Part shown: positions 1-33,904 of the stretch, in pieces
Numbering within the stretch: position 1 is the first letter of the stretch
How the letters are laid out: each line of letters begins with the position of its first letter
Assembly: GCF_015487465.1 (NCBI RefSeq)
Contig: NZ_WFPS01000053.1
Span: forward strand, 1 to 33,904
DNA: 33,904 nt
DNA from: Persephonella sp.
Lineage (GTDB): Bacteria > Aquificota > Aquificia > Aquificales > Hydrogenothermaceae
Direction: 5' to 3'
Program-made: the position numbers and the translations under genes
Notes under the pieces: model-generated
Seen by the model: only the letters and a program-made list of their open reading frames with translations
What the model was told of the DNA's origin: nothing
Database searches by the model: none

Positions 1-1460
1 AATGTTCCAACCTCCCTTGCTGTTCCACATGCTGAAGGCTGACCTGTGATTGAGAACGCACCATTTCCAGGCTGTGCCTGTTTTCCAAGAAGGTGATGGA
101 TCATGTATGCCTGTTCATTTACCCATGATCCTCTTGTGTGCTGGTTGAATCCCATTGTCCAGAATGTAACAACCTTTCTTCCTTTTTCAATGTAAAGCTC
201 AGCCATCTTTTTCAGTTTTTCTTTGAACTGCTCTAACGGCTCATCTGGATCACCTTTCGCTATTCTCGCAACGTAATCAAGTGTGTATGGTGCAAGTGCT
301 TTTTTGAAGTCTTCAAAAGATATAATCCAGTGCTTTCCAGCCTGCTTGGCATGTTTCATCTTAATGACATCACCTTCTTTGTATCCGTATACGCTGAGAG
401 CTGGTGCTTCAAGGGCTGACACTCTCTTAACAGCCTGTTTCATAATTGTCTGCATCTCTTTATCGCTGTATCCAAGTTTTTTAGCATGTTCTGGATTTCT
501 CATTCCATAACCGGTATCTATGTAACCTGTTGTGAACACGCAGTATTTGTTAACAAAATCCCAGTCTATAGCTTCAGGGTGATTATAAACGATCTCCCTC
601 GCAATATAGTTCATCATTGCAAGGTCTGTATTAGGTCTGAAAACTATGTCTATATCAGCCAGATCCATTGTTCTGTGTCTGAATGTTGAAAGAACAACAA
701 CCTTAACCCTGTCAGGATCAGAAAGTTTTCTGTCTGTCACCCTTGCCCAGAGTATTGGGTGCATTTCAGCCATATTTGAACCCCAGACCATAAATGTATC
801 TGTAAGCTCAATATCATCGTAACAACCTGGAGGTTCGTCTATTCCGTATGTCTGGATAAAAGCAGCAACAGCAGATGCCATACAGTGTCTTGCGTTTGGA
901 TCAATGTTGTTAGATCTGAAACCTGCTTTCATCAGCTTGGCAGCAGCGTATCCTTCCATAATTGTGTACTGACCAGATCCAAAAATAGCTACCCCTTCAG
1001 GTCCAAGCTCGTTATAAGCCTTTTTGAACTGCTGAACCATAACTTCGTAAGCCTTTTTCCAGCTTACAGGTCTGAACTTACCTTTCTTATCAAACTCTCC
1101 TCTGTCGTTCATTCTAAGGAGAGGTTTCGTTAAACGGTCTGCACCATACATGATTTTGGCTGTGAAGTAACCTTTGATACAGTTAAGACCTTTGTTGACT
1201 GGAGCCTTAGGGTCTCCTTTTACCGCAACAATACGGTCGTCCTTAACGGCGATCATAATACCACAACCTGTTCCACAGAAACGGCAAACCGCCTTATCCC
1301 ATCTCCATCCCGCCTCTGCATTTGAGGCTGCGGCAAGAGCTTCTTCAGGAACTTCCATTCCAACAGCAGCTGCAGCGGCTACAGCAGCACTGGTTTTCAG
1401 GAAGTCCCTACGGGACATCTCAAGTCCCGTTGACTGCTTCTTCTCTTCCTTTACCTCCAT
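1..1460 (-). CDS. napA: Periplasmic nitrate reductase catalytic subunit NapA (3' end cut by window edge)
   Basis: NapA is the periplasmic molybdenum bis-MGD enzyme that reduces nitrate to nitrite, usually fed by NapB/NapC/NapGH-type electron donors. I translated it from the reverse complement. It starts at ATG 1460 behind a purine-rich ribosome site (AGGAGAGGAG). Residues 16-22 are SRRDFLK, a twin-arginine signal followed by an Ala-rich hydrophobic stretch, so export is by Tat with the cofactor already loaded. Cys59, Cys62, Cys66 and Cys94 bind the N-terminal [4Fe-4S] cluster, with the conserved Lys96 just after. Cys193 (RHCMAS) is the expected Mo ligand. About 486 residues are visible of a family that is usually 800-950 residues, so the C-terminal part lies off the left edge. 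The other nap genes should lie further left if they are clustered. Confidence 0.95.
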
Positions 1461-1465
1461 GTTCT

Positions 1466-1580
1466 ACTCCTCTCCTGCAAGGCTCTATTTTTTCAGAACC
1501 CTGCAGGGCTGGGCTACTTCTATTCCGCCGTTTAAAAGGGATAGACAGACCCAGCTGGCGGTAATTTTGTCTATCCCGGA
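1466..1580 (-). promoter_or_regulatory. Candidate structured 5' leader RNA of napA
   Basis: The roughly 300 bases before napA hold no convincing gene. On the napA strand they contain a perfect 10-bp inverted repeat (1538-1547 with 1568-1577; GGGATAGACA) with a 20-nt loop, followed by a short U run (CTTTT). The loop has CCGCC (1557-1561) and GCTGGG (1550-1555). Both have exact partners downstream: GGCGG (1525-1529) and CCCAGC (1508-1513). A 10-nt palindrome (1499-1508) could pair through its CCTGCA with TGCAGG (1474-1479), which overlaps the ribosome-binding site. This looks like a regulated leader (attenuator or riboswitch). Pairings were found by eye without energy calculation. Confidence 0.5.
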
Positions 1581-1719: not shown

Positions 1720-1733
1720 TTGATCAAGGTCAA
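1720..1733. promoter_or_regulatory. FNR/DNR-type operator upstream of napA (near-consensus)
   Basis: TTGATCAAGGTCAA matches the FNR-family consensus TTGAT-N4-ATCAA at 9 of 10 defined bases. A weaker relative, TTGATCGTGATTAG, lies at 1703-1716. The main site is about 260 bases upstream of the napA start, with a possible -10 (TTAATA on the minus strand, 1688-1693) in between, which would give a leader of roughly 220 nt. The likely ligand is the Crp/Fnr protein encoded at 3774-4406. Confidence 0.6.
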
Positions 1734-3744: not shown

Positions 3745-3773
3745 TCTTTTAAGGATTGGAAGAGGGAAAAATT

Positions 3774-4406
3774 ATGATTGATGCTAAAGATATCTATCTT
3801 TTCAGACACCTTAGTGATGATCAGCTGAAAAAACTGCAAAGTATCTCTTTTGTAAAAGATTTTAAGAGAGGAGAACTCCTGTTTTACGAAGGTGAAGAAC
3901 CAAAATATCTTTATATTTTAATTGAAGGTGCTATCAGGGTTTATAAAACAGACTTTAAAGGAAATGAAATAACCCTGCACTATTTCCACCCTGTAAATAT
4001 GATCGCAGAAGTTGCCAACTTTGAAAACTTCCCATACCCTGCAACAGCAGAGTTTGAAACAGACGGGAAGGTTGTTGCGATAGATTTTGACAGATTTAAA
4101 AACCAGTTTCTCACAGACCCTGATGTTTCTTTTAACGTTATAAAATCGCTGGCTTATAAAATAAAAATACTAAACGACATTATTGTGCAGAACATGATGA
4201 TGGATGCTGTGTCAAGGGTTGCAAAATTTATTGATGAACATGAGGATCTGTTTAAAGAGCTAAAACACAATAAAATAGCCTCGCTACTTAACATAACACC
4301 TGAAACATTCTCAAGAATACTCAAAAAATTCAAAGATCAGGACATAATACAGAAAAAGGGAAAAGACATATACATAAACAGAGAAAAACTTAAAAAGTAT
4401 ATTTAA
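3774..4406 (+). CDS. Crp/Fnr-family transcriptional regulator (cysteine-free, DNR-like)
   Basis: A 210-residue protein with an N-terminal cyclic-nucleotide-binding-type beta roll (residues about 10-115, with GELLFYEGEEPKYLYILIEGAIRVYK), a long dimerisation helix and a C-terminal winged helix. The recognition helix reads TPETFSRILKKF. Glu177, Ser180 and Arg181 correspond to the Glu..SerArg triad with which FNR reads TTGAT half-sites. The protein contains no cysteine, so it cannot hold the FNR-type [4Fe-4S] oxygen sensor. DNR/NnrR-type NO sensing through heme, or another ligand, is more likely (inference). The start is ATG 3774 with AGAGGG 8 bases upstream; a TTG at 3756 would lie directly on its own AAGGA. 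The gene overlaps ccsBA tail-to-tail by 4 bases. Confidence 0.85.
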   Translation: MIDAKDIYLFRHLSDDQLKKLQSISFVKDFKRGELLFYEGEEPKYLYILIEGAIRVYKTDFKGNEITLHYFHPVNMIAEVANFENFPYPATAEFETDGKVVAIDFDRFKNQFLTDPDVSFNVIKSLAYKIKILNDIIVQNMMMDAVSRVAKFIDEHEDLFKELKHNKIASLLNITPETFSRILKKFKDQDIIQKKGKDIYINREKLKKYI

Positions 4407-33808: not shown

Positions 33809-33904
33809 TTTTCAATTCCTCGTAGGCACTCTAAAAACTGAAGAAAACATATACTCCGTAGCAAGATGGCAACCGTTTCAATTCCTCATAGGCACTCTAA
33901 AAAC
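33809..33904 (-). CRISPR. CRISPR array, trailer end (two repeats, one spacer visible)
   Basis: Two 30-base repeats: a complete one at 33875-33904 and a degenerate one at 33809-33838 (two substitutions, at its first and fourteenth bases on the plus strand), separated by a 36-base spacer (33839-33874). On the minus strand the intact repeat begins GTTTTTAGAGTGCC and ends ATTGAAAC, the usual 8-base crRNA 5' handle of type I/III systems. The array is therefore read leftwards, toward cas4, and the degenerate repeat is the leader-distal end. The rest of the array and its leader lie beyond the right edge. Confidence 0.92.

Follow-up and report, generated by a model that had tools for sequence, protein, structure and literature searches.

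The molybdoenzyme gene napA of Persephonella sp. is preceded by a structured leader, which raises the question of where this RNA came from and what it does for the gene. We analyzed the leader within a 33,904-nt stretch of DNA (the window), together with the corresponding regions of related genomes. An earlier note, made from the letters alone, had described competing pairings in this leader and had proposed a Moco-, nitrate-, or redox-responsive element, possibly of a new class.

The napA leader is a pseudoknot

The leader and its flanks have these features, in 5'-to-3' order on the napA strand (positions in the window):

1720-1733, minus strand (read 1733-1720): FNR/CRP-like box TTGACCTTGATCAA, found by eye; a candidate for DNA-level control
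1568-1577, minus strand (read 1577-1568): 5' arm of helix P0, GGGATAGACA; covaries across the family
1562-1567, minus strand: A-rich linker AAATTA, which joins P0 to P1; identical in the napA leaders that have P0
1557-1561, minus strand: 5' strand of P1, CCGCC; invariant in 17 napA leaders
1550-1555, minus strand: 5' strand of P2, GCTGGG, one nucleotide (A1556) past P1; covaries in napA leaders
1538-1547, minus strand (read 1547-1538): 3' arm of P0, TGTCTATCCC; covaries across the family
1525-1529, minus strand: 3' strand of P1, GGCGG
1515-1524, minus strand: A-rich loop L3, AATAGAAGTA; consensus AATANAANTA
1508-1513, minus strand: 3' strand of P2, CCCAGC; covaries in napA leaders
1474-1507, minus strand: P3, a 14-bp hairpin with a 6-nt loop (1507-1494 with 1487-1474), which closes just 5' of the Shine-Dalgarno sequence (SD)
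1467-1471, minus strand (read 1471-1467): SD of napA, AGGAG, unpaired
3-1460, minus strand: 5' part of napA, which extends beyond the window edge

A second piece of napA (G000, C22:10855-11373) is 99% identical (query 314-486) and lies at a contig end, so the two are probably one gene that was split by the assembly.

As the earlier note had seen, the leader contains a perfect 10-bp stem with a 20-nt loop (P0; 1577-1568 with 1547-1538), and both halves of the loop have exact complements downstream: CCGCC (1561-1557) matches GGCGG (1529-1525), and GCTGGG (1555-1550) matches CCCAGC (1513-1508). The 5' arm of P0 precedes P1 and its 3' arm lies between P2 and the 3' strand of P1; P1 and P2 cross each other, and P0 crosses both. 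To judge by this anatomy, an A-rich linker of 3-7 nt might allow stacking of P0 at the junction, and P0, P1, and P2 could then coexist. The region folds far better than its dinucleotide shuffles (z = -4.1 and -4.4; 0/200), and the claim that it is more than chance packing holds.

P1 and P2 are two crossing helices of which P1 is invariant and P2 covaries, as expected for an H-type pseudoknot. The napA leader is an H-type pseudoknot (P1, P2, and L3) with P0 threaded through it and with P3 before an exposed SD. So, the suspected pseudoknots are real, but we reject the idea that the pairings compete, since all of the helices are retained together in the same molecules. Two other features from the earlier note are present in the window but do not have the roles that they might suggest. 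The palindrome CCCTGCAGGG (minus strand) does pair toward the ribosome-binding region, but P3 ends ahead of the SD, which is free, so we reject sequestration of the ribosome-binding site. Similarly, a TTTT run (1537-1534, minus strand) does follow P0, but the run is not conserved in relatives and P0 is missing in three genera, so we reject an intrinsic terminator.

At gathering score, no Rfam family matched the leader in a search over the window. Over 1400-1800, with matches up to E = 5, there was nothing credible, and the weak matches were far below their families' gathering scores. The Moco RNA motif likewise forms a structured leader for a molybdoenzyme gene, but its covariance model did not match, so the leader does not belong to it or, by these searches, to another Rfam leader family. 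(At the end of the window, 33875-33904, there is an Rfam CRISPR-DR2 repeat.) Within the literature searched, no paper joins "transposon-adjacent motif" with "Shine-Dalgarno," and such a leader goes unmentioned in the passages covered of a study of noncoding RNAs in Aquificales (PMC4227106). Apparently, this leader family of heat-loving bacteria is undescribed so far, as the suggestion of a new class had it.

Selection on the fold upstream of napA

We searched 61 relatives and obtained 22 readable upstream regions of napA. Seventeen of these, from five genera of Hydrogenothermaceae (g1, g2, g3, g4, and g8), carry P1, P2, and L3 in the layout ACCGCC-n-P2-...-GGCGG-AATANAANTA-P2'-P3-SD-ATG. P1 and the A-rich loop are invariant across the 17 (the fixed positions of L3 are 100% conserved). 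P2 is GCTGGG/CCCAGC in most of the leaders, and its variants are GTATG/CATAC (L014), GTTCGGT/ACCGAAC (L015), and GCTAAA/TTTAGC (L020); the changes are compensated in three napA lineages. After excision of the long loop, ten leaders (nine of them distinct; rows not selected on P2) showed double changes at 5 of the 6 pairs of P2, with 99% of cells paired (0/500 shuffles). Neither shuffled nor slid versions approached the observed value. Thus, the related napA leaders do have the compensatory changes to which the earlier note had looked for a decision.

Other parts of the leader vary more. P0 is present in g1 and g3 and has been lost from the napA leaders of g2, g4, and g8. The sequence of P3 differs in each leader, and P3 always closes ahead of the SD, save in L020. 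The SD is unpaired in 11 of the 12 leaders that we folded; only in L020 does the minimum-energy fold reach it. So, we did not find the alternative, SD-hiding structure that is expected of a riboswitch that controls translation.

At four-fold degenerate sites of napA, the compared species are just 43-61% identical to the window copy, except for the closest relative (L002), which is 74% identical. Because silent sites of napA have diverged while P1 and L3 stayed fixed and P2 was compensated, we attribute the conservation to purifying selection on the RNA fold, and we are fairly confident that this selection acts in cis.

The napA genes of related species that lack the leader (L016-L019) have GGAGG as their SD. 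In genus g6 (L017-L019), another conserved stretch precedes napA, GTTGTACAA..TATTGTT..GGTTTGTAAACACTTA, without a pseudoknot.

The same fold at the right end of TnpB-carrying insertion sequences

To find other members of the family, we searched 136 Aquificota genomes with a core pattern and then with a covariance model (R1, which describes P1 only). The element was found in 84 of the 136 genomes. Six pattern matches without P2 (L087, L091, L115, L129, L130, and L133) were taken as chance. The element has two settings: it overlaps the 3' end of a TnpB-related ORF, or it stands alone ("solo"), roughly 40-60 nt before a gene.

Across the family, 7 of 7 pairs of P0, 4 of 5 of P2, and 1 of 5 of P1 covary. 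The covariation score is 0.643, versus 0.126 for shuffled and at most 0.11 for slid alignments; these rows were picked because they pair, so their 100% pairing is by construction. Tested separately from this count, the arms of P0 matched their own partners better (mean 9.7) than those of other copies (mean 5.8).

Many of the solo copies precede core genes, as judged by reading the translations by eye. These include translation genes (rpsT, rpmF, rpsU, rpsR, rpsK, rplQ, rplY, infC, and tsf) as well as rpoA, hfq, rho, hpf, ftsZ, ftsH, mreB, acpP, hsp20, grpE, htpX, nrdA, metE, ilvC, glyA, and others. Some leaders are kept in different genera: those of rpsT, rpmF, and a gene for a GYD-type protein are found in both G045 and G060, and a gene for a near-KaiC-type regulator is led in three genera (G003, G025, and G083; L042, L050, and L244, with a match to TIGR03879 for L042). 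The number of leader copies per genome ranges from none to 35 (in G045), with 17 in G060.

The other setting indicates how such leaders might arise. The linked ORF encodes 540-560 residues and matches TIGR01765 and TIGR01766 (both TnpB-related) above the cut-off. The right end of the insertion sequence (IS) has the same order as the napA leader: P0, linker, P1, 1 nt, P2, P0', P1', L3, P2', and P3. IS-linked copies terminate in ACCAGG, and in 32 of 35 measured copies, an ATG follows 1-9 nt later. The left end of intact copies starts directly after (A)AGGAGG or a close variant, and when the flanks are joined, they form ordinary SD-spacer-ATG sequences. In relatives, uninterrupted sites span the junction, both for trpS (G110 and G111, 99% identity) and for a ferredoxin-like gene (G052 and G056, 77-78% identity). 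These empty sites confirm that the insertion point of a TnpB-carrying IS family is immediately 3' of GGAGG in Shine-Dalgarno sites. Because the insertion falls there, the right end of the IS becomes the 5' UTR of the entered gene, which explains a possible origin of such leaders. This IS family is present in G084, G020, G035, G110, and others (L059, L062-L065, L150, and L157), and its terminal ACCAGG supplies the new SD.

The napA leader sits at an SD, where the IS inserts, and it shares the scaffold fold with the TnpB-linked copies. We conclude that the napA leader and the IS right end almost certainly belong to the same family.

Origin and role of the napA leader

Our best explanation, with a probability of roughly 55%, is that napA is led by a descendant (or cousin) of an IS end, devoid of TnpB and retained as a cis-acting, stabilizing pseudoknot in the 5' UTR. 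At the IS end, the fold presumably serves as the scaffold of a guide RNA (omegaRNA). Most likely, an IS end entered the SD of napA in an ancestor of the Hydrogenothermaceae and the rest of the IS was then lost; the pseudoknot would now be kept for a function in cis that is independent of TnpB. We infer that the descent ran from IS to leader, and it may instead have run the other way, with the leader first and the IS later. More broadly, we give even odds to the idea that SD-targeting TnpB transposons seeded the phylum with pseudoknot 5' UTRs, which were adopted as leaders of core genes, napA included, independently of TnpB.

The resemblance to the omegaRNA (or reRNA) at the right end of IS200/IS605 and IS607 elements is clear for the IS copies: within the same phylum, TnpB-related ORFs have a homologous fold at their 3' ends, and it extends up to a variable flank. 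In contrast, the napA copies have no TnpB match upstream, and lack IS ends or the ACCAGG terminus; the napA copy is a fixed 5' UTR, and it is without P0 in three genera. According to the part of the literature that we drew on, another conserved RNA motif, RAGATH-18, proved to be the guide scaffold of IS607 TnpB (its reRNA; PMC11061315). The napA leader differs in that it matches no Rfam family and that solo copies of its family lead host genes. Parts of TnpB transposons have been recruited for other roles, as in the TldR-type exaptation to which PMC13418256 refers. There, a protein was recruited with its guide, while in the case of napA, it would be the RNA end alone, in cis.

As to what the pseudoknot does, the free SD, the lack of an alternative helix, and the mixed gene set favor a passive role. 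A compact fold in the 5' UTR might protect the mRNA and hold the SD open at high temperature. We tentatively prefer such a stabilizer or insulator over a switch, at somewhat less than even odds. A TATAAT-like box lies 3-7 nt before P0 in 28 of 120 solos, versus about 5-6 expected from other offsets, and this enrichment (about five-fold) implies that for some of the solo copies, the RNA starts close to P0 or at P0 itself. We do not claim this position for all copies. For napA, a shield of the 5' end is less certain, because three genera lost P0, which is the part nearest to that end, and because the transcript may start well upstream of P0. Also, retention in cis must be weighed against the spread in copy number (none to 35) and against G045's dozen or so near-identical copies, which fit selfish spread as well. 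Another observation against our best explanation is the altered L3 in G009 (L022, from a 55% complete MAG).

An alternative that we consider unlikely is that the leader is a selfish guide donor. TnpB would bind the mRNA scaffold in trans, be guided by the opening bases of the host gene, and cut empty alleles at GGAGG; repair would then copy the leader in. This would account for the retention of the scaffold, including P0, in Persephonella-type leaders. Also, the insertion site GGAGG is a natural candidate for the TAM, many of the hosts have some TnpB, and G045 has its near-identical copies (L228-L239; P1 = GCGCC/GGCGC), which stand alone before unrelated genes and look as if they had spread recently without a linked tnpB. 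But G045's TnpBs are only distant relatives of the one that is linked to the element, and three genera have napA leaders that lost P0 yet keep P1, P2, and L3. Furthermore, G015, G060, and G041 encode no TIGR01766 protein, yet all three keep leaders (G015, whose genome is 100% complete, has a napA leader with P0), so leaders persist in the absence of TnpB.

Less likely still, the leader could be the site of a host RNA-binding protein that coordinates the leader-bearing genes. Dozens of leaders share L3 and P1, and many are on genes for translation and cell division, but such coordination fits poorly with the variation in copy number between relatives, and we identified no candidate protein.

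A riboswitch that senses Moco, nitrate, redox state, or another ligand and controls translation is improbable. By general knowledge, a compact, A-rich H-type pseudoknot beside an SD would resemble the small riboswitches in shape. But the responsive element of the earlier note is unsupported, as the same RNA precedes genes for ribosomal proteins, rpoA, ftsZ, acpP, htpX, and many others, which is a functionally mixed set. The SD is never within a conserved helix, we found neither a conserved alternative pairing nor a terminator, and Rfam has no match. Also, DNA-level control is already available through the FNR-like box: similar boxes stand upstream of napA in relatives (by eye), and a gene for a Crp/Fnr-type regulator is nearby (3756-4406), so regulation by oxygen or nitrogen oxides can operate on the DNA.

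Finally, a neutral relic of an IS insertion is the least probable, and although IS right ends are widely scattered and many solos may be recent, we reject it because in napA, P1 and L3 do not vary and P2 was compensated in three lineages, even though the silent sites have come close to saturation.

If our preferred reading of the leader as a retained IS end is correct, then cells recruit not only the protein of a TnpB system but also its RNA: guide-RNA scaffolds would have turned into gene leaders that are independent of TnpB, since the IS inserts at ribosome-binding sites and every gene that receives it thereby acquires the RNA end as its leader. Given the insertion site, GGAGG is a candidate TAM of these TnpB proteins and can be tested as such. 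As a defined set of structured RNAs, of which some genomes contain dozens of natural copies, the family lends itself to studying the protection and translation of mRNA at high temperature. It extends beyond the Aquificota: we also found the element in records from Thermosediminibacteraceae, Desulfobacterales, Thermodesulfobacteriota, and others.
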